Positions 381 to 30,817 of a stretch of 34,522 nucleotides of DNA are shown one piece after another. How positions within the stretch are numbered: position 1 is the first letter of the stretch; every line of letters begins with the position of its first letter. Source of the stretch: Cytophagales bacterium (GTDB lineage: Bacteria > Bacteroidota > Bacteroidia > Cytophagales > UBA9547); NCBI GenBank assembly GCA_013297755.1, contig JAAFIH010000039.1, positions 1-34,522 of the forward strand, given 5' to 3'. The position numbers were made by a program, and so were the translations under genes. The notes beneath the pieces were generated by a model. That model was not told the origin of the DNA and made no database searches. It saw only the letters and a list, made by a program, of their open reading frames with translations.

Positions 381-635
381 TTAATACACGGCTACCGAAC
401 GACTTATTTTGGTGTCTCCATCTATAATTACAATTTTGTATATGCCTTTGGCTAAGTTTTTTACTTCTATGTCGTGGCTTAGGTTTCGGTTTTGGGTCGA
501 AATATATGCTTTTTCGTAAACTAAAGCTCCTGTGGCAGCAAATAATTGGATGGATACCACACCAGTTTTAGAGATAGTTTTGTAGCTTATATGCAACAAA
601 TCTGTGGCTGGTACAGGCGAAATTTCTATGGCTTG
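381..635 (-). other. Type A T9SS C-terminal sorting domain of the giant protein
   Basis: The last ~83 residues match the Por secretion-system tail pattern: a start like IEISPVPATDLLHISY, a central strand VSIQLFAATGALVYE, then the conserved turn NLAKGIYKIVIIDGD and a basic end KISRSVAVY. In characterised type A domains this region directs passage through the outer-membrane translocon, is cleaved, and the cargo is attached or released. The assignment rests on visible motifs only. Confidence 0.88.
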
Positions 636-3600
636 TTGTGGAACTATGGTTATGGTACTATCTGTTTCTTCAAAGCTAAAACGTGATAATTCCTCAAAAC
701 CTGTTTCGGCCACTGTGTAGTTGTCTGATACCTGTGCACATTCGTCAGTGGCTGTGTTACCAACTTTTACTTTATAATTGGTAGCGTTATACAAGGCCCT
801 GTATTGTTGGTTGGTGGCTCCTACTATGGCTTTTTTGCCCACATACCACTGATAATTAGGATATTGCTGTGTACGTATAAATAATTCGTTGCCCGAACCT
901 GTTTGAGCAATGGTAGGTTTGGCTATACTATTTTGTAATATCACATTGATAGGCGATGTAGTAGTGGTGCAACCTTTGCCTGCTTGTATTTCTATGGCAT
1001 ACTGACCATCAAGTACTGGTTTGTATTGAGGGGTTGTAGCTCCTGCAATATAGGCATTGCCATATTTCCATTGGTAACTAAAATAATCGCCAGCGATAGA
1101 TATAGTAGTGTTGTTTTTATCACATCTTGCGGCATTTGATCTATTTATTTGAATGGTGGGTAGCAAAGATGTAGGTAAATTTACTACAATTTTTGGTTTT
1201 TTATCCAATACCAAAGTAGTACATCCAACGGCTTGTATAGTAGCATCGAAACCACCATTGGCCAGTAGAGCAGCAGGAATAGTAAGTTTCAAGGATTTGT
1301 TTACAGCATTAGCCGAGGTTTCTGAAGCCAACAATATATTTCCATTCCATGCTTGGTAAGTCATGTTTTGGTCTATATCAAATAGTGTAATTGTGGCTGT
1401 GCCGCTACAAACGGTATCTCCTTGGCTTACAATATTGGTATTTGGAGCTGCTACTACTGTTACAGTATATACACTACCCGCTTCTGATGGGCATATACCA
1501 GCTAGGGCTTGTACTATATAATTGACTGTGCCTACACCACTCAGGGTATGAGATACAGTAGGCCCTGGGGTAGCTATATTGGCATCAAACCCAGAAACAT
1601 TGCCCACCACCCCTACTACATTGGTAGAAAAAGTAGTACCTACTACAGACGATGTGTAATTGATATTGAATACCTGCCCACTACATAGCTGCAATGGCGA
1701 AATAGATTGAATATTAGGCACTGGCGATACTTGTATGATAGGCCCAGGCAGGGTTACTTGAGGACAACCAGGCACAGAGGCCACTACTCCCATTTGTACA
1801 GTACCCACCGCAAGGCTGTTGGCTGCTGCTGTCAAAACAAAATCTACACTAGAACTAAACAACTGATATGTTCCACCATTGGCAAGGGCATAGTAAGTTG
1901 TTCTACTGGCTGTTGGTATTTGAACTGCTGGAGCTTCGTTTTGGCAAATCTGATTGCGTACTGCAATGACTTGTGTTTGGGCATCTGGCAAAATTTTGAT
2001 TTTAACTATGGCAGTAGATGCTGTACCAGTGAGTGTGCCAGCACTATTACAGCCTGTGGCACTTACACTAATGATAGAATTATTGGTAAGATTGTTGGCA
2101 GGAATTGTAAAGTTTAGTGCATTGCCAGTACCTATTTTTGATACTCCAAAATATCTATTGTTGCTCAATATTTTGTATGATACTGTAGATTGCGAGGCAG
2201 GAATGTTAAATTCAAAGTTGGCAATATTGCATATTTCATCGGTAGAATAATTTATGTTTTTGGCCAAATCGAGGGTGCATAACCCAGCTACTGAGATTAC
2301 AAACGAGCCAGTAACAGTGCCTAGTGTACCTACTAAAGTAACAACCCCATTGCCAATACCTGTAATGGCACCAGTAGTCGTGTTGAGGGTTGCTATGTTG
2401 TTGGGCAATGCAGGTAAAATACTCCATCCTAGGGCAGTGTTGTTGAGGATGCCTCCTACAAAACTGACCACTGGCGAAATAACTCCACCTGAGGTAGTGA
2501 TGGTATTGATACCACCTGAGCCACCAATGGTAATTTGAGTAATGATATTGTCGGCTGAATAAAATCTACCAATGTAGCTATACTTAATACCAGCAGGAAA
2601 TGTAACTTGATAACTTGTACCATTAACAGCAGTTGGAAGTGTAGCATTGGTTGTAAGATTTAATTCATTATAATACACATTTGATGGTGTATTTCCTACT
2701 TTTTCGGTTGAAATATAACTAAAATCCATAATAGTATTTCCAGTATTATTTCTAAATCCTCCAACATCACAGATGTGGTCAAAATATCTTTTTACATAAT
2801 TTACAAATCCAGTAGTGGTAATACCTGTTCTAAAACCTAGAGGATTGCCAGCGGCAAAATCAGAGGCTGTTACGTTTACAGGAGCATATACACCATTGGA
2901 CCCTATAGGGTAAGTATAGGTGGTCTCTTGAATACCCCCTACTGGGATATTTCTGTATAAATAACCAGTGCTTGAGGCATCAATGTAAGTGGAGTTATTA
3001 TAAACGCCAGTGATAGTGCCATCTACAAATGGCTTACCTATGGTTAAATCATTTGCCCCAAGAGTAAGAATAGTATTTTTTAATTCTAAAGAATTAGCTA
3101 CAATATTACCAAACATTTGCTTGGTCGCATTTTCTAAATATAGTGCATTGTAGTCGGCTGTAATGATATTTTGGCTTACCAAAGATGTATATTTTACGGT
3201 ACTAAAATCTGGGTTGATGGTTAGGTTTGCATTGGCTGGCACAGTGCCACTAAAATTTAATTGCACTGGAATATTGCTTGTCAAATCAAATTGGCCAGTG
3301 CCAGAAACGCCTTTTATATCAAGGGCAGCTGTTCCATTGGTAGATTTTAATTTTAATACAGCATTTGAATTTACAAAACTCAAATTACCAAAAGTATAAC
3401 CCAAGCCTGACAAAGTCATTAATTTATCTGACATGGTTTCTAACGTAATGTTGGCATAATGGGTTGGATATATTTCTTGTGGCACAACAGAGGCATATAT
3501 GACACTACTAGATACTGTACCTACACTAAGGGTAGCATTGTTGAGTACTTTTCCGCCATTTCTCAAATAAAGGGTAGCACCATTTTCGACATTCCATTTG

Positions 3601-6600
3601 GAGTTTAGTCCAGTGCCATTCCATAAAGCACCATTTTGGAACACAGTAGTATTTCCATTTTTTTGCGTTATTTCAACGCCATCGAATAGCACTTTCCCTT
3701 GCAAATTGATATTATTGGTACCAACTAAGGTTTGATTGTTGGTGCTAAACAACACATTTGTAAGTTCTAAAGTAGGTCCTTGTGATAATATGCCATTTCT
3801 GATTTCAATTTTATTAGTAGTATCACGCAAAGAAAATTGATTTTTATTGTGTAAAAGTCCACCCAATACCATTTGTACAGTAGCGTTTGGAAATTGATTG
3901 ACTGTGCCACTTAATTGCACCAACGTAAGCCCAGTAATTGTTATGCTTGTATTACCTATAAAAGAATTTATGCCTGAAATAGTAACAGAACCTAAAGGCA
4001 ACACTGATGTATCGTAATTGACAGTATGACCACCAGTGATGCTTACTAAATCGCCAATGTTGTTTTTGCCAGGATAATTATTGCCTGCATTTGCCCAAGT
4101 AGCACCAGCATCGTTGGATACTTGCCAGTTTGGACTTGTCCAATTCATGGATGTAGCATTTGAACGATATAAATTGCCACTTTTTATAATTGTGAGGCTT
4201 GTTGGCGATAGAGCCAAACCACAACTATTGCCTGACAAAGTAACAATACCAGATTGTGCTAGTGAAGGTACATTTGCTATAAGTGTAGTATTGGTAGCTA
4301 TGTTGGGTATGGCGGTAGCTCCGTTGAATAATATTTGCGTAGTTTTATTCAAATTTAAACCTAGCAAAGTAAGGTTATTGCCATTTTCGACTGGGTTGGG
4401 TGCCATAGAGGTAATGGTTGGAATACCAGTAATACTCAAAGTTACATTTCTTTCAATGTTTTTGCATCCAGTAATAGTATTTGTAATGTTTACAAAATAA
4501 TTGACTACGCCACTTATTGTTGGTGTAAAAGTAAGGTTTGATGTAAATTTATTGGTTACATACTCCATATTAGAGCCTGCCCAAGTGTATGTATTGGCTG
4601 CATCACCAGAATTTATCAAATTGATAGGATTGCCAACACAATAAGGAGCACTAGACACACCACTTAATGTAAACACAGGTTTATCTATACCCAAGACACT
4701 TGTGGTGTATAAAGTAAAAGGCATATTGGGAGATATGCAACCATTATTGGATAATTGTAAACTATAAACTCCTGCTTTGGTAGCATCAAAATTGCTAATG
4801 GTTGGATTTGGGTTTGTAGATACATAACCACCAGGCCCTGTCCAAGAATAGCTAATGCCTGTACCCATTTTAGGGCCTCTTAATTGCAAATCAGAGCCAA
4901 AACAAATGGGGCTAAAAGGCATGGCATTGGAGTAAATTGGTGCATCCACAAACGACATACCTTCGTTGTAGAGTGCTGCTATTTCGTTGGCAGAAATGGT
5001 ACGACTATATATGCTAACATCATCTAAAACTCCTTTGAAAGTGCTATTGTTGGCAAAATTATCAGCACCTAAGCCAAGTTGCACAGCATTTGTGGGGCCA
5101 AAAGTTGATTTTGCTTGTGGAGTGCCTATGATTTGTCCGTTTACATACATAGAGACAGCAGTGCCATCGTACAGGGCTGTTACCATGTACCATTTGTTGC
5201 GTTCTATTACTAAATTATTGCCAGTACCATACATATCATTGTCGCTACCAAATACTAATTGAGTGCCACCAGTATTATTATTGATAGCTACAAATACATT
5301 ATCAGTATTACTAGAGCCATATTTTACCAAAATATGATTTTCGGATACAGGCAGTTGGGCAGCCTTGAACCACACATTAATCGCTCGTGGGGCGTTGGCT
5401 GTGGGCAAACTGGTATTATTGGCAGTGATATAATTGGAACCATCCATGGCATAAGCACCAGCCATTGGGATTAAGCCGGCACCAGCTAATCTGTCTGGCA
5501 CAAAGTTGGTGTTTCCTGTATTTTGGCCAGTTGTTGATAGATGAGGAAATAATCCACTATTGAATAAATCACTATCTAATTTATATCTAGCAACCAGACC
5601 ATTTAATAAGTTTACATCAGGGTCAGAATTATTGATTTGGTAAGTAAGTGCCGAAACCAAAGTAGTTGCTGGCGAGCTCGAGGTGACTCTCAATTTGTAA
5701 GAACCATCTAAAAGATTTGTAGGAATTAATAGTGCTTTAACCGAGTTTGGATCACCTAAATTGGGGAATCCTGTAAATGTTTCAAGCAAAATACCAGGAA
5801 ATTGGGTTGCATTGTTGGATAATTCTAAACTAAAAATATTAGAACCATCAAATGTGCCAATACCAGAAATAGATATTACATAATTGCCACCTGCACAAAG
5901 ACTGGTAGCCGAAACGTCTATGCCAGTAAGTGAGGCCAAATTGCTGTCATAGATTGTAAATGATTTGGTTTGACCATACAAAAATGGGTTTGATGCACCA
6001 AAAGTAGTTTCATATTTTTTGGCAGCATTATCTATGCTCGATTGGCCCGTAATGTTGGTGGTCCCATCGTACATGGCCGTAGGTGAGCCATTTACTGATG
6101 GGCTTTCAAATTTGAAATTAAAACCATTCATACCTGATGCAGTAGGTATAGCCCCACTGGCTAACGTGATTTTGTAAGGAACAAAAGCAGCAGATGTAGT
6201 TGTAAAATTATCTACCCTTGCCGATAGTTTGTTGTCTGTATTAATTGATCCACCAAACCCACCAATCGTAATGGGTACAAAAGCTGAGGCTGTGCCAATA
6301 GGGAAAATAAAATTGGTAAACGAAATGGCGGTTGTGTTTACACGTTCTACATTTCCTGTACCATTGGTTACAATTTTGTTGGTATTAGAGAATGGCTGGG
6401 TGGGTGTAATACCTGTTGCTACATTGCCAGAAATGCTAAGGTTGAAAGCACCAAGATTGAGAACAGCACCAGCCATAAGTAAATTGTTGTTAACCAAAAC
6501 ATTACCTTCTAGATTTTTTGGATTGAAACCAAGCACTTCAAGGTTGTGATATTTGCCCAATAAAATAGGTTGTATGTTATTATAGTTGTAATAAACTGTA

Positions 6601-21600: not shown

Positions 21601-24600
21601 AAAATTCCATTTCCAAAAAAGTAAGTACCAATGCCCTCTAGTTTTGTGGCTTTATTATCTAATCTTGTAAGGGAATTTGCAAAATTGATAGTTCCATCGT
21701 TGTAAATATTACCATTTATGAAATTAGCAGCAGAACCAAAACTTGTAAATAATTGCCCACCAGCCAATACTTTTAAATTATCAAAAGTGTAACAAATAGC
21801 TGTAGCATTTACTTGCCCAGTAGCATCAATTACCGTTTCGTTGGCATAAAGAGGTCCCCCTTGAGAAAAGTTTGAAAATTCATTTAAAATACCTGAAACA
21901 GTTACATTACCAACAGTTTGTGGAGCTATGTTTACACCAATTACGGTATGCCCATTTCTTATAATTACTCTATCGCCAGATGCAGATGCGCCTGGATAAC
22001 TGGCAGTGCCTAGCCAAGTAGCACCATTATCATCTGAGGCTTCCCAAATAGCAGAGTTCCAAGCTCCAGAGGCTGTGGTGGCGTAGAGACGGCTGGCGGA
22101 GCTGCGCATTGTTAATGTCTGAAAAGTATTTAATAAAATAGCATTGCTGTTGGTAAACACATTGGTTTGTGGATTGGTCATTAATCCATTTGGATTTACA
22201 TCTACAAACAAAGTTAAATTTGAAGGATTTCCTACTACTGATGCAGGTGGGACTTCTATTTTAAACATAAAATTATTTATTATTTGAGAAGCACTAATTT
22301 GAAGTTGATGTTTGATATAATCAGTGTAAGATGAACTATAATTTGAAGGTGCATAACTAATGATTGTATTTCCAGAAAAAGCCCCTAGACTTGAAATTGT
22401 CAAAGGTACATAAGCCGAAGGCGTAGCCATTGGGTACACAAAGTTTATAAAATCAGATGAAAAAGAGCCTGTTTTATTAATTCCATTTACACTCGAATTC
22501 GCCACCACCGCATTGCCAAAACCAAAAGGCACAGAGCCTCCAATATTAACAGAGCCAGTAGCTAGATTTAAAGTAGTAGATGCTCCATTCAATACCAAAT
22601 TGGCTCCGCTAAGCGAAAGGGCTTTGTTAATTTGTAATAAACTATTTGCGATTTTGTTGCCACCGCCAGAAACTTCGAGGGTTGCATAGTTCGTTGGTTT
22701 TACAATCTGATTACCTGAGCCAGAGTAAACAAATTTATTATCAGCACTAATTCCAGTATAAATAGTTAAAACACCTGTATTTGAATAATTTCCTTTGAGG
22801 TCTATAATTGAACTAGAGGCTCCGCTTAAAACCTCTAAATCTCTAGTCCCTTGAATATTTCCATTAACTTTTAAGATTGTATTGGGTAATTGTAATGATA
22901 AAGGAAAAATAGTTTCTATGCTCAAATTACCATCTATAATTGTGGTGCCAGTATCAAAATTTGTGCTAAAATTATTATTTCCTACTATGGAAAGGTTATA
23001 AAATTCTATAGCAGGGATAAATTGTTGGTTTATAGAATTATCAAAAACAACAAGGTTATTGGTGGCGGTGAAATCAAGGTTTAATGCACCTATACTACTT
23101 CCACCAAAATGCAAAGAAGCATTTGTGGCATTTGTAAAAAATGTATTACCCGTAAAATCATCAGTTGCCAATGAATTGGTTGTGAGTTTAGTTTTGTTGG
23201 TTACTGTACAATAATTAGCTGTTAATTCAGGCGTAGAAATTTCACTTGTGCCATCAAAAACTGCATCAACACCTACATTAATGCTTCCATTTATAATATT
23301 TATAGGTTGATTAGCGGTAATTGTTTGAGAGTTTGATTCAAACCTTGCCTGAAAAACATCTAAGTTACAGATGCCATTATTTAAAAGTCCGTTTTCAAAA
23401 TGAATAGTTGCTTGATTATTTCCAGCAGAAGCAGTCATAGAAGCTCCTACATTTATAATAACTAAGTCAATTAAAGATATATCAGCAGGAAAATAATTTG
23501 GACCACCTCCAAAAATATTTAAAGTACCATCTAATATTGTATTTCCTTTGATTGTTAATTTAATTCCTTCTGGGATAGTAGTATTAGCATTAAATGTAGC
23601 ACCAGTGCCTACATACAAATTTCTACTAATACCCACAACGGCAGCATTTCCAACTAAATCTGGAGCAAATTCTACGGTTTTTATACCACCTCTAATATCT
23701 ACATTTTCGTACCCAGCTGAAGCAAATATTTCTTGGCTTGCAGAGCTAAAATACGTTATTTTGCTACCTGCCAAGTTGGTTTGCAAACCCAAACCTGCCA
23801 CTGTGGTTTGGGTGTTTTTGGCTCCACCCAAAAATAATTGATGTGCTTTGTTTTGCATCAACAATGTGCCTGCACAGGTAAAATTACCGTTTACCGTCAG
23901 GTTTTGGGCTACTGCTGCCGAAAATCGAAGATTAGCTCCAGCATTTATGCCTAAAGTAGAAAGCGTAAAAGGTGGTGTGTTGTCTAATATTATTACATCT
24001 CTTATTTCTACTTCATCGCCTGCTATGCACATGCCTGGGGCTGTGGTGGCAGGTATCCATGTAATACCATCTGAGCTTTGCTCCCATCTACCCACAAAAT
24101 TCCATGAACCACTAGAAACGGAGCGGTATTTTTTGGCAGTTGGGGTATTGCCTGCGGCAAAAAAAGTGCCTTGTTTTGGTGTCGTTGCCGAGCCATTATA
24201 ACTAAAAGTACGATTGGCAATATCTACGAATCCTAAGGGCTGCAACACACCATTGGCCAACACATTGGATGGCGAGCCTATAAAATTAGAGGCTTGCATG
24301 GTTGCCGAAAACCCAAAAGAGGTAGAACCTGCTGCTTGCCAAGCAAAATCAATGCCATATTTGGCATAATTTGCTCCTAATATGGTAGATATTGGTTTTA
24401 TTCTAAGGGCATCAGTAGCCGAAACACCTGCAGCATCGTTTATTTTTGTAGTAATATAATCGCCAGTACCTTCTATCATAAATGGCACATTGTAGCGAGT
24501 GTATTTATTGGCTGCATTTTGTTGTAATATTACACTACCACCAGTGGCTAGTCCGTTAGATTCAAAGCAATTGGTGGCATCAAATCCTACAAAAGTAGCA

Positions 24601-27600
24601 TTATCCAAAAATGTAACATTGGATGAATTAAGTTGTAATTTACCATTGCTATTAAAACCTAAAGCTCCTACAATAGTAATATTTTGATTTAAAATAACGG
24701 GTACACCATCGTTTTTGGATAATAATAAATTTTGAAAAGTAGTTGGATTAGTGCCACCTATAATTTGAGTGCCAAGACTTGAAAACGATGTAAGTTGCGA
24801 TGAAGCAGAGGTAAAACTGCCATTATTTATAAAATTTCCTAACAAATTGATGCTATTGGCAGCAGCTGCCAAAGTAGTTGTAGCCCCCAAAATAGACACG
24901 TTTCCATTGGCCAAAAATCCACCATCAACCACATTTTTTAATCCATTGCCGTTTACAATAAGATTTGCATATTGATACCCTCTTACATTTTGAGTACCAT
25001 TGTTTTGATAGGCAATAATGCTACTTGGGTCTAAAAGCAGATTCGATAAAAATGCAGTTCCTTGAATTTCGCCAGTATTATTTACTAAATCACCAATATT
25101 AAGCCTTGTATTGGCATCCATTCGCAAGCCATTACTTCCAGAAAAAGACATATTATATTGATTAGAATTAAGCGTAGCCCCACCTGATATAGTAAGTCCA
25201 TTTACTGCTACATTATTTGCAAAGTTTTTTGTACTTGCATTATCAATAATCAAGTTGTTATAATTTAACCCAAAAACTTGTTGGTTGGCTGTACCATTAT
25301 AAATAACTGTTCCGTTCCCTTTTAAAAACGAACCACCAACAGAAACAATTGAACTATTCAATCCAGAAAGAATTAACTTATGTGGTTGATTTCCCCCTGA
25401 CATATCAAAATTTTGAACCAAGTTCAGGTTCGTATTCCCTGATACCGAGACCGTTATTCCAGTTATTGTATTGAACCGAATAGTTGAAACTGCTCCATTT
25501 TCACTAATAAGATTTACCGCATTTGTATTACCCATAAATCTACCATTGCCACTTTGCCCAAAGTTGAGGTTGTAGTAGTTGGTAGGTTTTACTGGAATGT
25601 CAGATGCAGTAGCGTAACTTACGGTTGCATCAATGGCATCCGCCTTCAAAATACCAGTACTCATTGGCATAAGATTTTCATTTACAAACATTACTTTAGC
25701 ATTTGGCAAAAGCTCTAAAGTAGATGTGGCACTTCCGCCAGTAAGTGTATTTGCAAATTGTAAAGGATTGCTACTACCTAGCGGTGCGACAGAAACTCTA
25801 ATGCCCACATTTATAAAATGTGGTCCCCTAAAACCTATGAGTTCTGTTCCTGAAATGGTTTGATTATTTACTCCCCATCGCACACTTGGCAGAACATCTA
25901 AGTTAAATTTATTATTTACAAACCCATTTCTAAAAACCAATATACTATTTATGTTTCCTTCTATCAATCCTGCATTTCGCAATGGTCCATTAAAAACTAT
26001 TTTTGATGCTGCATTTATGCCATTAAGTGTGCCTGTAGATAATATATATGTAGCACCTGATATACGTAAACTATCTGTGCCATTATGCACTAAATTACCA
26101 GAAATGGTGAGTGAATTGAGTAGTTTATTAGCAAATGCACCTGTGATTTGTACGTTTGTACCTCCTGTAATACTTACTAAATCTTGTGGCACCAATGCAC
26201 CAGGAGCATTTGTGGCTGTATTCCAAGAGGCACCACCATTGTTTGACACTTGCCAAATACTAGGAGTAGTCCAATCGCCACTTGTAATGGAGCGATACAT
26301 GGCAGCACTTACATTGATAACTGTAAGTACTGCTGCAGTACTTGTTACAGATACACCACAAGTACCACCAACCAAAACCCTGTATTGAGATTGATTTAGA
26401 TTCATTCCTACATTAGAAATAAGCAATGTAGGAGATAAAGCCCCACTAAAAGTAAGATTATTTGCTATTGTATTCCAAGTTGTGCCACCATTTACTGAAA
26501 TTTGCCATTGATATGTTAAATTTAGCCCATTAGCCGCAACTGTAAACGATGGAAACCCACCTATTCCTTCTGAATCGCCAATGGGTTGCGATGTGATGGT
26601 GGTGTTGGGTTGCACATTGAAGCCTACGCCTGGGCTAGTACAACCATTGACTATGTTTCTGGTTATAATAAATATAGGTGTTGTATTGCCAGTACCAGCA
26701 GTGTAAATATTGCCTGTAATATTACCAAAAACACCCTGTGGAGATGCATAAGCCCAAGTGCCGCCATTGGTACCTGTAAGGGTTTTTGCGTTTGGAGATG
26801 GACATATATCTACGTTTGGTGGGGTAGTATTTGTGGGCATGTAATTGATAACCACATTTACGCCTGTACTGGTGCAACCATTAGGAATAATGTTAAAAAA
26901 TGTTCCCAATATACTACCTGGTCCAGTTATGTTATTTACTGTAAAATTATTACCAATAACAACCCCAGCACTTGGGGGTGTTACTATCCATTGTGAGCCA
27001 TTATTTCCTACCAAAAGTCTTTGTGATAAACCATCAGCACAAAAAGGTGCATTGGATGTAGTATTGGTGGGTGTACCATTTATTTTTAAAAAATAACCAC
27101 TTACACTACTAATATAAAAGGGATTGGTAGCACGAATACGTACATAATAATTGGGATTAGGTGCCAAATTTGATGGAATTGTAACGACCAAACCAGCAGC
27201 TGAAATAGATACACCTGTTACTGAGCGAAGGGCTGTGATTAAAGTTGTAAAACCTGTAGTAGATGATACTTCTACAACAAAAGTATTGACAGTATTAAAT
27301 GTATTGCCAAAACTTTGGGCAGGAATAGTAACGACTTGCCCTTGACAAAAAATTGGATTTGCGATATTGCCAAGCGTGATACTCGATTGCAAAGCACCAG
27401 GATAGGCAGCCGTAAAGTTGGCTGAACCATAAGCCATTCCATTAACCAAATAGGTTGCAGTATTGGTTATTGCATTTACACCAGTTGGGTTGTTTGCCCA
27501 ACCTGTGGTATTAAATGCACTTCCATAGCTAGTTTCTATACCTTGCACATCAGCATCAATATATGTGCCAGTTACACTATTTGTAATACTAGAAAAGTTT

Positions 27601-30284
27601 GAACTAGCCAATTTCCAATGTCTTTTAAGAGCATAAGTTGGGTCTCGCAAATTAGGAGAAACCGTGGCTACTACACTTGCCGAAATGGTAGCATTGCTGG
27701 GAATCGAACTTGTAATATTTTGGGTAAGTGGTGTATAAGCCCCTGCTGTACCAATAGGAAAGAAAAATGTACTGCCAGACAAAGAATTAGGAAAAAATTT
27801 AGTAACCAAGCTATTGGGATGGCTACACAAAATCATATTTGTAGCCGAAAACGCATTGCCAAGTGTGGTAGAGGTGGCTCCATTATATGTAAATGTATTG
27901 TTTCCAATATCGAAAACTGAGTTAAAAAGTGATAAATTACCAAATACTTTAGCGTTTGAGTTAGTTGAAACTACTGATTTTGTGTTATTAACCCCAGTGC
28001 TAGATAATACTACATTGGGATATGATACACTTGGGATGGTTTGATTTATATTATTAGAAATGAAATTAAAACTTGCAAATGTGTTAATATTTGCATTTGT
28101 GGTTAATCCTAGTGAATTATTAGCACCATAAAAATTAAATGTATGTACTACCAATGTATTACTTACATTGATAGTACCACCAGTACCTATCAAATCGCCT
28201 TGAACATTGATAGTTTTGGCACCTGCATTAGCAGCTTGCAAACTAAAAGAAGCTGCAGAGCCTACAAAAAAATCATTGCCTATGTTTATAGTTCCGCCAC
28301 CTACAAAATCGTTGAGCAAATTTGTACCACCATTGGTAATTACACAATCGTTGATTACATTTAGTCCTCCACTTGAAAGTTTTTTTAGACCACCACCTGA
28401 AGCTACAAAGTTATAATAAGTTGGGGCAGAGTTTGCAAATTGTGTGCCTGTAGCTGCAGCATAGTCAAAAGTATTGCCAGCAGCAGTTAGGTTGAGCGTA
28501 CCCGTACTCATAGGGGTTTGTGTTCCATAGTACTTGGTGTAGGCGTTGGCAGAATTTATAAAAGTTCCATTACCCAACATATTACCAACAAAAGTGAAAA
28601 TTCCAGTAGATTGATTAATCAATTTTGTAGATGCACCATTAATAGAAAGAGTGCCATTGATTAATATACCTTGCGTTCCTTTGAGTGTATTTGAATTGGA
28701 TGTAGTGTTGATATTGAAATTACCTATTGAAAACGAACCACTATTGTCTATTTCTGTTAATAATACACAACTAGGCATTTCTACTAAACCAGTAGTCGAA
28801 AACACACCTGCGTTAAGGGTTTGCCTGTCGAGTCTTATTGTTGCAAACGAATTGGCATTGAATACTCCAGAGGGTAAAATTCTCATTGTGGTAAATGAAT
28901 GAATAATTGGGGTAGTATTTAATAAATTTAAGCTTCCTGCAATAGTTATGGCAGATTGAATACAACCAACATTGTATTTGAATTGGCTTGCACCAGTTAC
29001 ATTTACAGTTGTGCCTGCATCTATCAAACAAGAAGTACTATAAGAAGTATTAGCAGAAATATTTTTAGAACCAGCACCTGAAAAGATTAATTTAGGATAA
29101 TCACAAGCCAATATGTTTTGCGTTGATGCCCCAAAATATTCGATAGTGCTTGTAGAGTTGTTTGCTAGAATTGGAAAACCATTATTTAACCATAGTGCCC
29201 CTCCTATTCTAAACAAATGAGGAACTCCTGTTCCAGTCATCACAATTAAACCATAAAATTCATAATTTCCATCAATTTGAACATTTTTAGGGGTTATTGA
29301 ACCAAAATCAAAAATATTGCTGCCCCCCATAGACATTGTACCCAAACATCTAAAATTCATTGTTGAAGTAGGAATGGTAGTAAGACTCATGTGTACACCA
29401 CTAGCAAAATTAGCAGCAACACAAGTAATGTTAGAAATTGGATTTTTGTATCCACTACCACCAATAACCAACTTTGGGTAATCACTACTTCCAAAAACTG
29501 TTTGGTCGCCAGCACGGAGGTACGAAACTGTGTGGTTGGTAGGCGAAGTAGAACTAAAAGAACCTATGGAATTGGATGCTCCGTAAAGGTTGAGGTTGCT
29601 AACAACAGCCGCATCTGCCATATTTATTGTTCCAATTCCAGACAAATTATTGATAATACTTACATTTTTGGCAGCAGTACTACCGAAAGTTAACGTCCCA
29701 TTAATGGCCGCATTACCCGATATAGTTACATTTTTTGCAAATGCACTAAGGTTTAGAGAACTACCATTGATTATACTTAAATTACCAGCTATAATTACAT
29801 TACTGTTTGAAAAGTCAAATGTCTTAGTACCTGAACCGCCAATTTGAATGTTGAAAAAATTTCTGGAGTATATTATTTGATTTCCAGCACCAGCGTAATT
29901 TACATTTCCAGCAGGTACAGACATAATCCCAGAAAATGCATCATTCCCAAAAATATAAAGTGCATTGTTTGGAAAAGAACCACTAAAAGCGATTTGACCT
30001 GTACCTGTTATACTATTGTTTACATAGATAGATGTACTATTTGCAATACCAAAAATTAAACCACCATTTACAGTCAAATTATTGCATTGCCCAATACCTG
30101 TCGAAAGCCCTGTAACTGTTCTGCCTGCTGGAATAATTACATTGTGTGTTATACCAGGTACAGTACCCAAACTCCAATTGCTATTAGTGTTCCATGCACC
30201 ACTTGTAACATTAAAAGTATTGGTTTGAGCCAAACCAATTTGTGCTAAAGCACTAAAAAATAGGATAAATAGTATTTTTTTCAT
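381..30284 (-). CDS. Giant multidomain T9SS-secreted surface protein (9967 aa)
   Basis: One unbroken frame codes for a protein of roughly 1 MDa (rule of thumb) that is probably exported to the cell surface as an adhesin or matrix protein. The ATG at 30284 is chosen because it begins a clear signal peptide (MKKILFILFFSALAQIGLA, likely cut before Gln20); an in-frame TTG 18 bases upstream only adds MGKVKY. The body is rich in Asn, Gly, Ser and Thr. Eight 'YRS..GxW..GGHTV' modules begin near residues 24, 1329, 2050, 2731, 3281, 4310, 7601 and 8703. LamG-like domains begin near 4852, 5502, 6147, 6802, 7154 and 8225. The first three of these are each followed by a CSLREA-type beta-helix (GSLREAIAEANTDPDTDYID) with turns such as IGG..DRNVISGN. 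IPT/TIG-like domains lie near 7511-7599 and 8616-8702, a Big_2-like domain near 9252-9349, and Ig-like domains near 9715-9835. Residues from about 9885 form a type A T9SS sorting domain (ISPVPATD...KGIYKIVI). No catalytic domain was recognised, so function is inferred. Confidence 0.95.
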   Translation of the reverse strand: MKKILFILFFSALAQIGLAQTNTFNVTSGAWNTNSNWSLGTVPGITHNVIIPAGRTVTGLSTGIGQCNNLTVNGGLIFGIANSTSIYVNNSITGTGQIAFSGSFPNNALYIFGNDAFSGIMSVPAGNVNYAGAGNQIIYSRNFFNIQIGGSGTKTFDFSNSNVIIAGNLSIINGSSLNLSAFAKNVTISGNAAINGTLTFGSTAAKNVSIINNLSGIGTINMADAAVVSNLNLYGASNSIGSFSSTSPTNHTVSYLRAGDQTVFGSSDYPKLVIGGSGYKNPISNITCVAANFASGVHMSLTTIPTSTMNFRCLGTMSMGGSNIFDFGSITPKNVQIDGNYEFYGLIVMTGTGVPHLFRIGGALWLNNGFPILANNSTSTIEYFGASTQNILACDYPKLIFSGAGSKNISANTSYSTSCLIDAGTTVNVTGASQFKYNVGCIQSAITIAGSLNLLNTTPIIHSFTTMRILPSGVFNANSFATIRLDRQTLNAGVFSTTGLVEMPSCVLLTEIDNSGSFSIGNFNINTTSNSNTLKGTQGILINGTLSINGASTKLINQSTGIFTFVGNMLGNGTFINSANAYTKYYGTQTPMSTGTLNLTAAGNTFDYAAATGTQFANSAPTYYNFVASGGGLKKLSSGGLNVINDCVITNGGTNLLNDFVGGGTINIGNDFFVGSAASFSLQAANAGAKTINVQGDLIGTGGTINVSNTLVVHTFNFYGANNSLGLTTNANINTFASFNFISNNINQTIPSVSYPNVVLSSTGVNNTKSVVSTNSNAKVFGNLSLFNSVFDIGNNTFTYNGATSTTLGNAFSATNMILCSHPNSLVTKFFPNSLSGSTFFFPIGTAGAYTPLTQNITSSIPSNATISASVVATVSPNLRDPTYALKRHWKLASSNFSSITNSVTGTYIDADVQGIETSYGSAFNTTGWANNPTGVNAITNTATYLVNGMAYGSANFTAAYPGALQSSITLGNIANPIFCQGQVVTIPAQSFGNTFNTVNTFVVEVSSTTGFTTLITALRSVTGVSISAAGLVVTIPSNLAPNPNYYVRIRATNPFYISSVSGYFLKINGTPTNTTSNAPFCADGLSQRLLVGNNGSQWIVTPPSAGVVIGNNFTVNNITGPGSILGTFFNIIPNGCTSTGVNVVINYMPTNTTPPNVDICPSPNAKTLTGTNGGTWAYASPQGVFGNITGNIYTAGTGNTTPIFIITRNIVNGCTSPGVGFNVQPNTTITSQPIGDSEGIGGFPSFTVAANGLNLTYQWQISVNGGTTWNTIANNLTFSGALSPTLLISNVGMNLNQSQYRVLVGGTCGVSVTSTAAVLTVINVSAAMYRSITSGDWTTPSIWQVSNNGGASWNTATNAPGALVPQDLVSITGGTNVQITGAFANKLLNSLTISGNLVHNGTDSLRISGATYILSTGTLNGINAASKIVFNGPLRNAGLIEGNINSILVFRNGFVNNKFNLDVLPSVRWGVNNQTISGTELIGFRGPHFINVGIRVSVAPLGSSNPLQFANTLTGGSATSTLELLPNAKVMFVNENLMPMSTGILKADAIDATVSYATASDIPVKPTNYYNLNFGQSGNGRFMGNTNAVNLISENGAVSTIRFNTITGITVSVSGNTNLNLVQNFDMSGGNQPHKLILSGLNSSIVSVGGSFLKGNGTVIYNGTANQQVFGLNYNNLIIDNASTKNFANNVAVNGLTISGGATLNSNQYNMSFSGSNGLRMDANTRLNIGDLVNNTGEIQGTAFLSNLLLDPSSIIAYQNNGTQNVRGYQYANLIVNGNGLKNVVDGGFLANGNVSILGATTTLAAAANSINLLGNFINNGSFTSASSQLTSFSSLGTQIIGGTNPTTFQNLLLSKNDGVPVILNQNITIVGALGFNSNGKLQLNSSNVTFLDNATFVGFDATNCFESNGLATGGSVILQQNAANKYTRYNVPFMIEGTGDYITTKINDAAGVSATDALRIKPISTILGANYAKYGIDFAWQAAGSTSFGFSATMQASNFIGSPSNVLANGVLQPLGFVDIANRTFSYNGSATTPKQGTFFAAGNTPTAKKYRSVSSGSWNFVGRWEQSSDGITWIPATTAPGMCIAGDEVEIRDVIILDNTPPFTLSTLGINAGANLRFSAAVAQNLTVNGNFTCAGTLLMQNKAHQLFLGGAKNTQTTVAGLGLQTNLAGSKITYFSSASQEIFASAGYENVDIRGGIKTVEFAPDLVGNAAVVGISRNLYVGTGATFNANTTIPEGIKLTIKGNTILDGTLNIFGGGPNYFPADISLIDLVIINVGASMTASAGNNQATIHFENGLLNNGICNLDVFQARFESNSQTITANQPINIINGSINVGVDAVFDGTSEISTPELTANYCTVTNKTKLTTNSLATDDFTGNTFFTNATNASLHFGGSSIGALNLDFTATNNLVVFDNSINQQFIPAIEFYNLSIVGNNNFSTNFDTGTTIIDGNLSIETIFPLSLQLPNTILKVNGNIQGTRDLEVLSGASSSIIDLKGNYSNTGVLTIYTGISADNKFVYSGSGNQIVKPTNYATLEVSGGGNKIANSLLQINKALSLSGANLVLNGASTTLNLATGSVNIGGSVPFGFGNAVVANSSVNGINKTGSFSSDFINFVYPMATPSAYVPLTISSLGAFSGNTIISYAPSNYSSSYTDYIKHQLQISASQIINNFMFKIEVPPASVVGNPSNLTLFVDVNPNGLMTNPQTNVFTNSNAILLNTFQTLTMRSSASRLYATTASGAWNSAIWEASDDNGATWLGTASYPGASASGDRVIIRNGHTVIGVNIAPQTVGNVTVSGILNEFSNFSQGGPLYANETVIDATGQVNATAICYTFDNLKVLAGGQLFTSFGSAANFINGNIYNDGTINFANSLTRLDNKATKLEGIGTYFFGNGILQTVTVMTNFATQLTVAGTGNGLAFSFPTYKWIQAPDSYFTFSSTVNYPTAANFVATATGNTFEYGGAASQNIEDLTYYNLATSGASTKTILANTLVLNDVTNNATSLNFATNTSLTVTGSFIGSGIVNMSSGTAEKLFIGGDFQTTGNLSTTFNDEIHYFGTNQQLIKAGQYPNLRVSGGGDKLLTGNITIGDGTNSCTLNLNGARVILGDYNFFIASPSNLNPNPIPTFSNTNFIQTDGLGMLGHYNGNMTYPVGNGNFISKVVTNSFNANPNPNPVYIKSVSTVASGLISPSNALKRHWVLSVGGTASGFSSGTMFCDYLPSDVQGIEANYLAAGSPSTPIAWNINGAGSVNAGTKIITYNLAATSGKELIVTAGPPQAFTPVGPYYRSNATLSFNWSNSPSSNWQVSSDFVNWTPAPNYPGEFLTGDIVSITGGHTVTLDVNPLELGNVSVSGTFFTNTPNTAIFGGNVLFTNTSSAAFNGNTYFKNGIINNSGGVMSMQGNNYFTTNNQTISGTGNTSLYPTSIVGVTLTNKSTGILYFYSSITGTDVNSTLENEKGAVFLFSQEPMLIGNLVSSLSGSYLGYWSSTAQTIKGGNYNNINLQSNNKLLLSDLTTKTMGIGADLEFSSISPVNLNVTSDINNFTNTVNMNQPLAHHFTVPGFISNISSTAEIRGGPSANGTVHYVAPTTQPIIKGNYTNLEIGAGVKTLQYIASVDKNLVVQTNSTLSGSNSTITSPLQANGNTTINGVLDFGDATTARTFAFGTDANANSLFGNGTIRMKGGVQHVWDNKLNNQNFTGTIDADLPSVVAFTNANISQNLPSKLGVNTYPNVFMTGAVKNQLTNSLINGNLSVIGTTFDLGTASGDILTVMGTTMAETTGAMIKTSGSGGQKILLIGDLNLGGATAININSSSSPNTLELRGANNINGGMVTIGATPSDIVIYSRLGNQIMLGAGTPFSLNYPNLIVTGSGTKQLVANSQVQGLSILGATLDSREFQITGTATEKMLMDNSSVLILGNNTVATPSLFPTNFTKPNISLHPTSTVIYQSNSNNIVSGVPTYGNLQIDGGGTIKSLSENTTVAGSLWVKNGHLDFTTSVSNLFVNGASTVNGVLQFNGATTQPVAATFNNDLIVANQFLFATAQPHSVFVGGNFSCLGVLNMSGIGGSYLLELAGANNVINQGGFTNSNNAEIHYSGSVTQNVAPLMNYTKLRFSGGGDKIVTNDIKVDFGLYMDGAVIKPNPPKLITLETTGFIYHAVPFGSTNMIDCSIAGVGATLVRKASADADLNNFVFPIGSNGIYSPVTISSIFASSYAPGTSGMMIRPVLTTLGFTDYISRGFQVFTQSITGISDFKPVFKFDPSEVVNAPSDIFVNNVQLPVGGFLDYSTTNTFGVNAPGNTVMNGLWQAYSYPEPTFFRSIATGNWTTPGTWQGSADGNTWYSLSAGQYPGYLNNGDVVSISGGTAVLQNTPLANDLLNITVSGQVTFAGGNITVSGTTNLTTGAELKLDNAANYIGVGKANIASTIPLTGFGNFEFQGGIESSVTSNFGAPVLFSNNQTLSGFGLISFNGGVTIANNATVEQQISTANILFQPLNGLGANAVYKVASFAQVGFNFTQTPMQTGLLDATAIGSRVIYSSFSNQNVKPTTYYNLDIIGAGNKIIEANVNVINNVGLNGTPAGIISFSGSAISTLSISGNLNLGTVTSGIDMSGGGLAHSLYLGGATNSLNTFNAGNGTVIYNGLAPQSVFAGDYNTLQVTGSTIKSLTGATSAKNIQLNGAVLNVGNQTLVQLAPGTITGTVAFSPTNYIQLGTGEIRRNGSNATDFSSVVLPIGDISAFAPVTIVGMTASTYDLIGIKTGLTTTGLTNYVSRYFSIDQGSTGVVSDFRILFSYAPIEKIGNPTQVNHTNTVGTPQLGAVPTNSFVDIANNIFGVNAAGNTLTQGTWFVGNSLIIPTMPVGNRGMYLEGNQVAGSNVITSTLPTNAVDNITLEAWVKLSKLPTGLAFVAYNGNSSANGYGIFIDPTGNVSIFIAGLGGVNFAAPVLLNQWSHIAIVKNLGLWELYINGIVAPYTGGWPQNAVFGPPSGSLVVGNGFGESNPFAGQIDEVKIFNTARTQAQIQADMGSTLADGAVGYWNFEETSGSTANDMSGNGNNANFVHIPLRALRVTNNTDTPAPGLGSLRQAIAEANTDSDTDYIDFSIQQTVAGLAGVSTINVGFPVLTITQPVFLDGYSSFNSTINSLNIGSNAQLRINIDLAGTARPSGLQIKNHFGSLIRGLSFYNIPNDAGDGHALGIFNATSNTIQGCWFGIDASGVAKTNMNGLYLSPNANNNCIGGDNSSDRNVFSASQFQGINLQGNNNLIKNNYLGTNVQGTSAFANNLVGIALTAPNTGNKIIKNLISGNGSNGGIKLQNGTTNTLVQGNIIGLNANLTSNIPNATDGIKIDAFDGGVSKNITIGGTGFGEANTIAGNTNYGVQINNTGNVGVIGIVILNNNIYSNNLGGIDLLNNGNNSKAAPVITSAFPILISGTCSAGDVVQVFNDNTPIIGTNQGRTYLGNATVSSTNWSYAGTFTLGDRITATATDNTNGTSAFSNAATVTSPPLPTMPVGNRGIYFDGSINKNITATSPTTQVDNITMEAWVKLSKINTNNALILVNGNTSTEGYGLFVNTSQQINVICGGAGGVASTSTLNINQWTHIAAVRSSGVWSLYVNGNSVTTSGNPAPNIISSATFLIGSNNIGTENFIGQIDEVKIFNTVRTQAQIQSDMSSTTPDGAVGYWNLDESTNTTAANSGTVGATSNGSLNNNPLWALRVTNNTDTFSGGNLGSLREAIAEANTDPDTDYIDFSIQQTVAGIGGVSIINLPNSSLDVINNPVFIDGYSAYGSSPNTLAVGNDANLRIELNMASGSNLRTEGLLFNNISNSEIRGLSVYGLPINGSSSSRSVAFLGGTSNTISGCWFGVKADGTAASTSSNHIEIGTATQNLIGGSTPQARNVISNSAYSGIKINSNGNIIQGNYIGTNPSGNGAMGNGALGGWGVVVYDGINNQIINNVISSNKIGLGITTSNTLVKGNKIGISADALTSLGNLQHGINIYFNSVIPQNNTIGGFAISDENIIGFNGSYGISIDGSSTIGNKIFGNQIAENFLGGISLLNGGNNSKAAPVITSAFPTLISGTCAVGDLVQVFNDSPTSVTSNQGRTYLGNATVSSSNWSYTGTFTLGNRITATATDNTNGTSAFSNAATVTSPPLPTMPVGNRGIYFDGVDDFVAVNNPVQNDFTIEFWIKTRQTGSPSAGIKWFDGFGLIDGDAATLDYGISMSNGKIRFGTGSNSPVFDYTAEGTTLVNDNKWHHVAVTREQASGGVSMYIDGVSEPLTGNLNQTLGGLTGAATLKIGRIQSLPNFFNGQLDEIKIYNRVLNASEIQSDMGLPGVLSGIVAYWTFDESTGLIAADATTSYNATLSNSPTTPLWALRVTDNTDNGSATLGSLRQAINEANTDPDTDYIDFSLPSGTQTIQPTTSYDLIQPILIDGFTQLNTLTGENSTPNTNPFGQPINAKLNVVINGANAGTDAFVLKSDNSTFKGLVVNGFASTGAFAFDNTVPSVSNNHISGCFIGTDRAGTVAVPNSHAFIATNPNSTARSGNIIGGLSNEDRNLLSGNSYAALADFNGWNTGLIQNNYIGTDANGTTAIPNGAGINAIIWSNGVTISGNVISGNTTDAIIIGSISNGGYKITGNIMGLSANAQNSLPNLGNAINITDCFNNTIGGNLPFESNTIAGNGLVGISITNTTALKNIVLGNNIYNNANGGISLISGGNANKLSPSITSAYPTLISGTCAVGDLVQVYNDSPTSVTTDQGRTYLGNATVAGSNWSYAGIFTLGDRITSTATDNSNGTSAFSVAAIVTPTTPGEALDFDGVDDYVQTNSLWLNKTKNFTLEAMVNWKGATSTNQIILLNGNSGSNGFGIAIDKSSGNKLSLFVPFVTWNTTTTSAILPTNNSWQRITVVNNEGSWALYLNGVPQILPEPTAVPNNIPVTITNSYIGANQAGQENFNGIIDEVRIWDRALCADELLSISSCENPSVQTGLIAKYNFNQGQGSGLNTSITTLADASGNNNNGTLTNFSLNGVTSNFVTGGGVVSGSTCTSTICIPPTLTGLTFNSSFGNRFCNTDNGVVTLTGTGTFNGSNLFVVQLSDNVGNFANAYDLVSVAGTNPNVITSGVFLPSTSTLDGTNFKLRVISTSPATTFVGTPLITVVNLSLDLFSGLVAYYPFDGNANDASGNGNNGTINGGVTPTTDRFGNTGGAYQFDGNTGYISVADANSLDFTNRYTLSAWVYGYDMSLEQAIIGKPRPSFVTGYALQSAFGSVINSFCNASCSGISSSISNLKPKWNLITGTYDGTKQNLYFNGILVNTRIESMSLVNSTEPLYIGREFIGSGSNDRFFNGPIDDVRLYNRALSDAEIAALYNGSQACVGTDFALQSPTFAGANYAWSGAGTYSNSNTPNPTISNAPAGNLVYTSTISKNGCTSIYTTTVVVNALPGLGIQAILPQTLFCANQQIPTVGVGGDANVSYTWLGSNLEYHNNRFIPSTTYIPTTSGVLTISLTGTNTLTGCTNFWDRGTYTITGIPTITGVAPNPVQAGTPLTLFGNNFVGQITNAAFFGGSQSSLTPTPIQVVFIVPNSAQTSLVTLSGLGACASAITSQVVTVTNGNFYRSITTGNWSNSAIWEKSLDGTVWNAASNYPGQISTGDIVSISGGHTVRVDTNPQVLGNVSVSGTLNSNPTNTIIFGGKLLINNFGVISLTGTTELRNGLENNSTSSRPELLGNTLFTTNNQTITGVGTKENLITNLTTIVGVSVTNKLIFWQLNDVITGTDANSTLINEKDLRFNFASEPMPIGNLVSTIPGFAGSNIAYTSNSPQVIKAGTYSNVSLINAGTKTLIGNLTCEDFGVNSPFTFGNSSALNLNIKGALAIWYPITMTGFAHNLTIGGIINTNAQASIDASLGTVYYNYNNIQPILLGKYHNLEVLGFNPKNLEGNVLVNNNLLMAGAVLNLGAFNLSISGNVATGITPTQPFSNTNKIVTNGTGNVERVNTTAISFTNFIFPIGTASAFVPITIGGFGGSINTDNKLSARVDNFTTTSAAFVPYKITLASGAIPTASGMNGFNFKFESPSVNGSPTAMYDGTTNITGQSSIDNAAKKYETTFGASNPFLYGQTKSFTIYDSNLASLTGIDVSATSLCAGGNYVISISGIGTFDGSNIFSLELSNNATQFPGILLETFTGFPNLGDPNSVKALLIPTNLLDGSYKLRVTSSSPATTLVSALTYQINNSDPDVNLLNGLVARYKLDSDLFNSGLFPHLSTTGQNTGNTNFVPDRLAGAGLIPMAGAYAMDGSNYITANNTSLPTANAPRAINVWFKAAQLPVSENHILVKYGSSNTDNVFVAINNNTGGTQLVFGSDNDMYGTGNNLVIERNKWYMVTALYDGTAVSMYVNGQIIGTPQAKSTFGPTNAVQLGLGADNFANNSTFKGVLDDVSIYSRTISANEIAALYNEGMSFVDAPIYSNAMPFSPICFGSDLQLRGPKMGTGISYSWTGPGGYVSTNPNPTISNFDATKAGVYSLQLSNNGCISPNMPFTLYTTSVLGIDKPVFTLSGVSSAPYCVGNPINLINSGDAANTYTWAGSNMEYVTNKFTSNLTFTPTISGVVNYFVNITNTITGCKNIERNVTLSITGIPTITSMAPNPVENGNNLTLLGLNLNKTTQILFNGATAIPNIATNTTLIANVPSLAQSGIVTLSGNSCGLALSPTSLTIIKSGNLYRSNATSMNWTSPNWQVSNDAGATWANAGNNYPGKNNIGDLVSITGGHTVNYDTSVLPLGSVTISGINSFIGNTSITITGLTLVQLSGTVNQFPNATVQMVLGGLLHNKNQFSLRDTTNKIEIRNGILSQGPTLELTNVLFSTNNQTLVGTNNINLQGKVLFDGVEITQKNGNTTVFQNGALWNGTGLNSKWNVENGATLYLRNGGKVLNNATLSVGTVSSSVIYASVVPQEIYPTHYANITLETMSDKLMTLSGLGYTFGNLSFVNSNAVLKLKSTNGTAALDIKGVSGTGQFDLTSNIPVQLNFSGTVPANANLTINPDFSTVKYTSLVSQNIITADYNALYLENATKQMFGNIVANSLELKNTILTLGANDLTIGKPFVDGTITGVYNNSTYIDASSTGYLYRNIPVGGIQETTYTYPIGSNGVYAPVNVTASDFAAGNPLGFRTGITTTGFVNYVKRYFDHICDVGGFRNNTGNTIMDFSYISTEKVGNTPSNVYYNELNLTTNATLPTAVNGTSYQVTFPAGIKYSYIGRFYSADNIITQITIGGSGGINTITTSGGVISPVVSFVGGILNNTALGWSILPALPNNIATLNTTTGAITGIGNGVVTLVGTLGTVTGSFVISVAGLCTLDLAKNINYSTDEICNIANFEFNIPASQSTVSYKILSNNRYFGVSKIGTGNALNFTIPANNLTNNSIISVSATGCNSAGTLTGTASTAIVKIKILPDAQTQVIAVRNQICQNEAPAVQIPTASRTTYYALANGGTYQLFSSSVDFVLTAAANSLAVGTVQMGVVASVPGCPQVTLPGPIIQVSPVPNIQSISPLQLCSGQVFNINYTSSVVGTTFSTNVVGVVGNVSGFDANIATPGPTVSHTLSGVGTVNYIVQALAGICPSEAGSVYTVTVVAAPNTNIVSQGDTVCSGTATITLFDIDQNMTYQAWNGNILLASETSANAVNKSLKLTIPAALLANGGFDATIQAVGCTTLVLDKKPKIVVNLPTSLLPTIQINRSNAARCDKNNTTISIAGDYFSYQWKYGNAYIAGATTPQYKPVLDGQYAIEIQAGKGCTTTTSPINVILQNSIAKPTIAQTGSGNELFIRTQQYPNYQWYVGKKAIVGATNQQYRALYNATNYKVKVGNTATDECAQVSDNYTVAETGFEELSRFSFEETDSTITIVPQQAIEISPVPATDLLHISYKTISKTGVVSIQLFAATGALVYEKAYISTQNRNLSHDIEVKNLAKGIYKIVIIDGDTKISRSVAVY
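11836..11912 (-). repeat. 77-bp perfect intragenic repeat, copy 1
   Basis: These 77 bases are identical to 13771-13847, an offset of 1935 bp equal to the supermodule period. They encode the end of the Ig-like linker and the MPV of the next LamG-like domain. Similarity continues on the right, with substitutions, to about 12137. Confidence 0.85.
13771..13847 (-). repeat. 77-bp perfect intragenic repeat, copy 2
   Basis: Identical to 11836-11912. Similarity also continues to the right: a later stretch ending near 14070 again matches the stretch ending near 12137 (GATGTGATGACTGGGGCAGC and neighbours). Confidence 0.85.
30228..30284 (-). other. Signal peptide of the giant protein
   Basis: Residues 1-19 (MKKILFILFFSALAQIGLA) show a Lys-Lys n-region, a hydrophobic core and a GLA-Q site fitting signal peptidase I. 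Sec export to the periplasm before T9SS passage matches the sorting domain at the other end. Confidence 0.88.
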
Positions 30285-30423
30285 ATATTTTACCTTACCC
30301 AATCCAACTCCAAAAAAGGAAGGATTTTAAGCAAGGATTTTGTTTTTAGGATGTATAATTAGTTAATCAAAATCGCAAGAATGAAATGACTGCAAAATAA
30401 GTATATTTCGTCTGCAATATATA

Positions 30424-30780: not shown

Positions 30781-30817
30781 CAAAGGATGCCATCACTTTG
30801 AGCGATGGCATCCTTTG
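30781..30817 (-). terminator. Hairpin terminator just after the GLUG/MBG gene
   Basis: Perfect 14-bp arms CAAAGGATGCCATC (30781-30794) and GATGGCATCCTTTG (30804-30817) enclose a 9-base loop, starting 4 bases past the TAG stop codon at 30822-30824. The core (GATGCCATC, GAGCGATGG) resembles hairpin family B of the adjacent array. This makes readthrough into the giant gene unlikely. Confidence 0.72.

Follow-up and report, generated by a model that had tools for sequence, protein, structure and literature searches.

The locus analysed here raises the question of whether a single, very long open reading frame in a draft bacterial genome is a genuine gene and, if so, how its product is built, where it is likely to go and what it may do there. 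The window is the entire contig C33 (34,522 bases), and coordinates below refer to it unless another contig is named.

A single intact gene

The giant gene is one open frame on the minus strand (30284..381) consisting of 9,967 codons and a stop. The start ATG is at 30284 and the stop codon is at bp 381-383, giving a product of 9,967 residues with a predicted mass of 1.04 MDa, a predicted pI of 5.1 and a combined D, E, K and R content of 8.7%. An alternative TTG start at 30302 would give a protein of 9,973 residues. From base composition, 6.9% of codons in the gene would be expected to be stops (approximately 689 in 9,967), and the log10 probability of finding none, calculated with the gene's own composition, is -310. 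As none are present, the frame is not a product of chance, and the unbroken frame of approximately 9,967 residues reported in the initial annotation is borne out. The other five frames across this stretch contain 322 to 933 stops each. G+C content at the three codon positions is 0.41, 0.46 and 0.23 overall, and the third position has the lowest value in all ten 3-kb steps along the gene (range 0.185 to 0.291).

The initial annotation had taken the gene to be repetitive yet intact, and hence selected, and had named a collapsed or chimeric assembly as the finding that would count against it. The DNA is not very repetitive, as the longest exact direct repeat within the gene is 77 bp. The direct repeats listed for the gene are diverged module copies (the closest pair is 300 nt long and 89% identical), and Tandem Repeats Finder placed all six of its rows beyond the gene, from 30452 upwards. 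A tandem-repeat or collapsed-repeat origin was rejected on these grounds. The host genome is a 4.24-Mb draft (estimated 100% complete). Because the longest exact repeat is so short, no tandem array lies in the gene and both contig ends are outside it, short-read collapse and chimerism are unlikely. The giant gene is a real, intact single gene.

The product of the second long gene of C33 (34352..30822, minus strand) is 1,176 aa long and combines GLUG and MBG domains with a type IX secretion system (T9SS) tail. This neighbour (30822-34352) holds 78-nt and 225-nt tandem repeats. The palindrome GATACCATCG-N7-CGATGGTATC is found on both sides of the giant gene (317-343, 30682-30708 and 30786-30812) and, allowing up to 3 mismatches, at 32 places in the host genome and at none in a backward control. 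It looks like a REP-type element.

Modular organization of the predicted protein

Module borders were assigned from internal window comparison, motifs, Pfam matches and alignment. The entry-motif pattern was found at six places and the end-motif pattern at four, while other borders were set by similarity or by eye. All of the features described below are on the minus strand, as parts of the frame at 381..30284. The recurring solenoid unit has an entry motif that is rich in tryptophan and contains PG and GD, followed by a predicted beta-helix of approximately 330 residues and an end domain, which carries an F-x-F/Y-P-I-G motif in some copies.

The N-terminus (aa 1-19; 30228..30284) resembles a signal peptide in its sequence, by eye, and in its hydropathy. 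It is followed by an N-terminal solenoid region (aa 20-1327; 26304..30227), recognised by internal similarity to the other solenoids, with a weak G8-like start (aa 37-89; 17 bits, below the cut-off of 22.9) and, near its end, an Ig-like stretch seen by eye. Solenoid modules then follow at aa 1328-2051 (24132..26303; alignment A2 and profile match), aa 2052-2735 (22080..24131; entry motif and internal similarity) and aa 2736-3280 (20445..22079; motif, alignment A2 and profile match). A long solenoid module at aa 3281-4312 (17349..20444) was recognised by entry and end motifs, internal similarity and a profile match, and the module at aa 4313-4854 (15723..17348) is the one from which a structural model was made.

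The central block consists of three units, each with a LamG domain, a beta-helix and an Ig-like part, that were aligned with one another (alignment A3). Unit 1 (aa 4855-5502; 13779..15722) has a Pentaxin-type LamG match at aa 4880-5023, unit 2 (aa 5503-6151; 11832..13778) has a Laminin_G_3 match at aa 5516-5660 and was also modelled, and unit 3 (aa 6152-6806; 9867..11831) has a Laminin_G_2 match at aa 6212-6307. LamG domain 4 and the stretch following it (aa 6807-7149; 8838..9866) were identified by a LamG-like Sialidase N-terminal match at aa 6900-6968. LamG domain 5 (Laminin_G_3, aa 7200-7354) is followed by an Ig/IPT-like stretch recognised by eye (aa 7150-7603 in all; 7476..8837). Next come a solenoid module (aa 7604-8130; 5895..7475; motif, alignment A2 and profile match), LamG domain 6 with a further Ig/IPT-like stretch (aa 8131-8705; 4170..5894; Pentaxin-type match at aa 8313-8446, the whole resembling aa 7044-7700) and another solenoid module (aa 8706-9250; 2535..4169; motif, alignment A2 and profile match). 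The protein ends with a C-terminal Ig-like stretch, assigned by eye (aa 9251-9888; 621..2534), and a type A T9SS sorting domain (PF18962; aa 9889-9967; 384..620). A 345-aa frame on contig C23 also has the last part of the Ig-like stretch and the tail.

Laminin_G_3 (PF13385) scored above its cut-off in two of the three query pieces (219.1 and 228.5 bits, three stretches in each); in Pfam, the piece with LamG domain 4 contains three such stretches. The Sialidase and trans-sialidase rows on the giant protein presumably reflect the LamG-like, non-catalytic parts of those families. The Ig-like and IPT-like stretches were recognised by eye, and no Pfam Ig or TIG match was found in the protein at E ≤ 0.01. 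The kinds of module named in the initial annotation are therefore present, the Ig/IPT parts by eye only, but they do not form the simple series that it described, since beyond the central block LamG modules alternate with solenoids. Of the two ends that it named, the sorting domain is recovered above its cut-off (29.9 bits, cut-off 27) and the N-terminus resembles a signal peptide in shape and hydropathy.

Predicted fold of the repeated units

An AlphaFold2 model of one solenoid module (aa 4313-4848), made with nine module sequences, is nearly all beta, with a pLDDT of 77.5 and a pTM of 0.78; the first 28 residues, which correspond to the entry motif, have a pLDDT below 50. In VIA-align, the best row for this model was a CBA120 tailspike (Z 15.1, rmsd 4.7, 271 aligned), and antigen 43 (Ag43; Z 14.6) and the adhesin PfbA (Z 13.4) were also matched. 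We take all three to be beta-helix proteins. Foldseek returned 202 matches to the model at E ≤ 10 and none at E ≤ 0.001, and a search of solved structures by sequence with the solenoid profile gave none at E ≤ 0.1. When the nine solenoid members were compared with Pfam at E ≤ 0.1, five families were matched, all of them weakly and each in one member (best: G8, E-value: 0.0015). Similarly, a single NCBIfam family was matched weakly in one of the nine (E-value: 0.01). Judged by these sequence comparisons, the solenoid module, being without a significant match in Pfam or NCBIfam, is unnamed by either.

The model of LamG-helix-Ig unit 2 (aa 5503-6151) is of middling confidence (pLDDT 67.6, pTM 0.65). 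Its helix part aligns with 8wm1 (VIA Z 29.3, rmsd 2.7, 288 aligned) and again with PfbA (Z 23.5). For its LamG part, fold comparison listed pentraxin and LamG domains (Foldseek rows from E-value: 1.2e-8). The profile of the unit also matches solved chains by sequence, including an S-layer domain-containing protein (4qvs_A, E-value: 3.8e-13) and an arabinanase (5hon_A, E-value: 3.8e-9). The predicted fold of one solenoid module and one LamG unit, the two for which models were made, is a right-handed parallel beta-helix. If all of the solenoids were to stack end to end, the modelled strand count would lead us to guess at a rod of the order of 100 nm.

A collinear relative and evidence for selection

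A search for homologues, as suggested in the initial annotation, found a relative that has the same start and tail and is collinear with the giant protein almost throughout, from its first residues to its last; apart from the module differences described below, the comparison segment at aa 2701 lacks a collinear match. This relative belongs to the same GTDB genus (genome G001, the MAG Bacteroidetes bacterium PH2015_06S_32_163, RDZG01000054.1, C143:105411-131239) and spans 25.8 kb, or about 8,609 codons. Amino acid identity is 47% over 8,176 aligned codons, and identity at codon positions 1, 2 and 3 is 0.584, 0.659 and 0.432, respectively. The best-conserved part is the LamG 5 and Ig/IPT-like region, with up to 74% identity in a 200-aa window. 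Over the same 8,176 codons, pN (0.375) is lower than pS (0.656); as pS is near saturation, only the direction of this difference is used. The direction is the same in all seven aligned segments. The codon comparison leaves out aa 2701-2800, 3274-3280, 5501-6151, 7601-7603 and 8071-8705, which have no clear partner in G001 or lie at segment joins. This comparison of two sequences shows purifying selection and supports the selection for an open frame posited in the initial annotation.

The span in G001 is broken into one frame of 3,258 codons and another of 5,383; the two have 94 bases in common (C143:115091-115184), and this overlap holds a T7 run. The frame change may be due to a sequencing error, a mixed population, slippage or a true break. 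The scaffold naming of G001 is that of a Microcoleus-dominated Eel River mat study (PMC6776057), to which it is linked by name only; the available text of that study describes 150-bp Illumina pairs and an IDBA_UD assembly. Just upstream of the relative's gene (C143:104550-105245) is a frame that resembles, by eye, a REP-associated Y1 transposase.

The two proteins differ by whole modules. G001 has two LamG-helix units to the three in the giant protein, and four Laminin_G_3 stretches to its six (Pfam). LamG 6 with its Ig/IPT-like stretch (aa 8131-8705) has no partner of its own in G001, while both of the late solenoids do. As G001 lacks one LamG-helix unit and the LamG 6-Ig/IPT stretch and the order of the rest is kept, the giant seems to grow and shrink by modules, and chain length seems, from this alignment, to evolve by gain or loss of whole modules.

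The genus includes a third genome (G002; 380 contigs, 95% complete), which gave no match to aa 1-2995 or to aa 7001-9967, with three of 13 candidates scored for the latter. The gene may therefore be dispensable in G002, not assembled there or missed.

Distribution in the order

Queries from the two ends of the protein were compared with other genomes of the order. Matches to aa 1-2995 were found in at least 13 of 59 genomes (the host included), and among the candidates scored only G001, besides the host itself, had the whole query. With aa 7001-9967 at E ≤ 1e-8, at least 46 of 98 genomes matched (again with the host included), mostly through LamG 5 or the tail, and only G001 besides the host had most of the rest among the candidates scored. 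The solenoid profile, at the same threshold, matched in at least 32 of 98 genomes, including the host and G001. As up to four, three and 14 candidates per genome were scored for the three queries, respectively, these counts are lower bounds, and a full-length relative elsewhere in the order may have been missed.

When genome contigs were scanned with alignment A1, 114 stretches were reduced to 13 loci. One of these, the G001 contig, matched nearly the whole query, and the other 12 had their best segment in the LamG end. A first scan with the C-terminal part had given 16 pattern stretches, none of which was confirmed. When viral contigs were scanned with the conserved part of the protein, none of 62 pattern stretches was confirmed and no relative was found, and a viral origin was rejected on this result.

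Other giant frames are found in the order, those of G085 and G006 among the genomes matched by the solenoid profile. In another family, G085 has a 10,615-codon frame (C14:46241-78085) that ends in a PF18962 tail and contains LamG, FG-GAP, Ig and LRR domains, Pfam having covered 6,252 of the 10,615 codons. This frame shares with the giant its solenoids, LamG domains, tail and a helix unit resembling aa 4901-6800 (window identity of at most 50%), but it is a mosaic with FG-GAP, Ig and LRR and has low similarity outside the LamG-helix unit. At E ≤ 1e-6, 70 of 100 windows of the giant protein match it, compared with 14 for reversed G085, 1 for shuffled G085, 13 for the giant's own reversed sequence and 22 for an unrelated giant of the host (on contig C34). 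These control counts indicate that the weak matches are inflated by composition and common modules. The LamG-helix part scores 154 bits against G085 (reversed G085: at most 46) and is the only part far above the controls, and the G085 frame was rejected as an orthologue. Within the host's own family, G006 has a 6,715-codon frame that continues past the end of its contig. Frames of 6,739 to 8,567 codons occur in three genomes of 1.5-1.6 Mb from one family of the order (G016 C3, G034 C22 and G049 C15), of which they take up an unusual share. Our survey of T9SS tails in the order covered 148 genomes with the best matches of each (up to 35, partly listed), and it is not read as showing that such frames are rare.

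Predicted export by the type IX secretion system

The tail matches the sorting domain PF18962 with 38.1 bits at 399-620 in the genome contig search, in addition to the hmmscan score given above. The related model TIGR04183 gave 18.4 bits, below its cut-off of 23. SprA (TIGR04189), the PorU sortase (NF033707) and PorV (NF033709) are each encoded in the host genome above the curated cut-off. PF18962 was matched at 91 places in the host genome at E ≤ 0.001, the longest frames being 9,981 codons (the giant gene, counted from stop to stop) and 7,317 codons. The latter (G000 C34:33064-55014) is a second T9SS giant, made up mainly of FG-GAP and TIG repeats with one Laminin_G_3 stretch. Type B tails (TIGR04131) occur at 24 places, in frames of up to 5,941 codons, but none of the 24 is on C33 and none was found in the giant protein at E ≤ 0.01. 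A check for an sprF/porP-like neighbour covers the 380 bases between the giant stop and the end of C33, where the next gene is visible as a start only. Based on its tail and the machinery of its host, the giant is probably an exported type A T9SS cargo.

The available text on Flavobacterium johnsoniae describes type A tails as leading to static anchoring or release, and the type B tail of SprB as directing cargo to the gliding machinery (PMC12618676). RemA, however, contributes to gliding with a tail of type A (PMC12618676; PMC10202324, in the parts available), so that a type A tail is not an absolute argument against a role in gliding.

Possible function and alternative explanations

We consider it reasonably probable that the giant protein is an adhesin fibre of the cell surface or matrix, either anchored or set free, in which beta-helices give length and LamG/helix units bind. 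The protein would be exported by Sec and then pass through the SprA translocon by means of its type A tail and PorV, after which it may either stay anchored at the cell surface or be released. The extracellular protein would be a long rod, mostly beta in structure and weakly charged, whose length is set by the right-handed beta-helix modules. Glycans or neighbouring cells would probably be held by the LamG and beta-helix units of its middle part and those close to the tail, and the whole would work as an adhesin fibre. This reading is supported by the open frame, the selection on it, the type A tail, the secretion machinery, the LamG matches and the variation in module number with order kept. 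Going by its scaffold name, the G001 relative would come from Microcoleus-dominated mats, a habitat in which attachment would matter. The long surface fibre or matrix protein proposed in the initial annotation is thus still the best reading, resting on anatomy and relatives.

Adhesion is not the sole reading of these folds, because LamG and right-handed beta-helix domains also occur in enzymes. The giant could instead capture and degrade glycans, with beta-helix units that cleave or epimerise a polysaccharide (such as cyanobacterial or algal sheath) held by LamG. Most of the 50 fold matches listed for the helix of the LamG unit, with Z from 23.1 to 29.3, are phage tailspikes, polysaccharide lyases, epimerases or glycosidases, and the sequence matches include an arabinanase LamG domain. 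We nevertheless regard an enzymatic role as unlikely for three reasons. First, no family named for a catalytic beta-helix is among the Pfam matches of the giant at E ≤ 0.01. Second, the three units lack GH28-type and AlgE-type signature motifs as a set, although this is a weak test. Third, a shared fold does not show a shared function.

A gliding-motility adhesin, moved along the cell by the T9SS motor, is also to be weighed. SprB of Flavobacterium johnsoniae, at approximately 6,500 aa, resembles the giant in being a very large surface adhesin exported by the T9SS, and type B tails also occur in the host genome, at 24 places. SprB differs from the giant, however, in having a type B tail and an SprF shuttle and in serving gliding, whereas the giant's tail is of type A and its contig bears none of the type B places. 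The participation of RemA in gliding with a type A tail tempers this difference (PMC12618676; PMC10202324, as far as their available text goes), and we judge a SprB- or RemA-like role to be quite unlikely. Most likely, the giant is an anchored or released adhesive or matrix fibre, by its inferred function, and not a gliding adhesin of the SprB type.

That the locus is instead a decaying or optional mosaic surface gene, drifting, often broken and of little present function, appears improbable. The frame break in G001, the lack of a match in G002 and the fast divergence (47% identity over 8,176 codons) are what such a gene might show, but they are set against 9,967 open codons in the host (G000), the 5,383 open codons of the second G001 frame and pN < pS in 7 of 7 segments. 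An assembly artefact, whether chimera or repeat collapse, is most improbable, as the drift in third-position G+C (0.185 to 0.291) and the draft state of the genome (70 contigs) are outweighed by a 77-bp longest exact repeat and by a relative that is collinear over nearly its whole length apart from two missing modules.

Comparison with known giant proteins and significance

Within its genus, the giant shares its start, its tail and 47% collinear identity with the G001 relative, which differs in being shorter (approximately 8,609 codons), in having two LamG-helix units and no partner for LamG 6 and its Ig/IPT stretch, and in lying in two overlapping frames. Further afield, giant genes and huge proteins (over 5,000 aa) of bacteria form an established class, for which the available text gives a single frame of more than 5,000 codons as the criterion (PMC11573180); the giant gene has 9,967. 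An Omnitrophota ORF of 39,678 aa has been proposed to form an extracellular coat, and others are thought to act in cell contact (PMC10066038). These ORFs share giant size with our protein and some have laminin_G_3, but they reach 39,678 aa and have transmembrane helices, and the portion of that paper available mentions no T9SS tail. Giant1-5 of Apilactobacillus kunkeei, a lactic acid bacterium, are likewise very large extracellular surface proteins, of 3,000 to 8,000 aa (PMC12863079, from the text available). A search of titles and the starts of abstracts, with bioRxiv and most subscription journals outside its scope, found no paper on the giant protein itself. The giant gene belongs to an already known class of giant bacterial surface proteins. 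It is large, as the initial annotation held in placing it among the larger bacterial protein sizes, but not exceptional, given the 10,615-codon frame in the same order and the Omnitrophota ORF.

The giant gene would overturn nothing that is known. It does offer a clean, intact T9SS-type cargo of megadalton size, of which a second species has a sister copy, and this makes the size limit of the T9SS and the change of fibre length by whole modules testable. As a more speculative proposal, the solenoid unit might be an uncatalogued building block for giant T9SS fibres in the order, with module number possibly acting as an evolvable ruler for the distance from the cell to its partner. The uncatalogued solenoid module is the part most worth taking further, and a family model of it could annotate a share of the giant unknown proteins in Bacteroidota.
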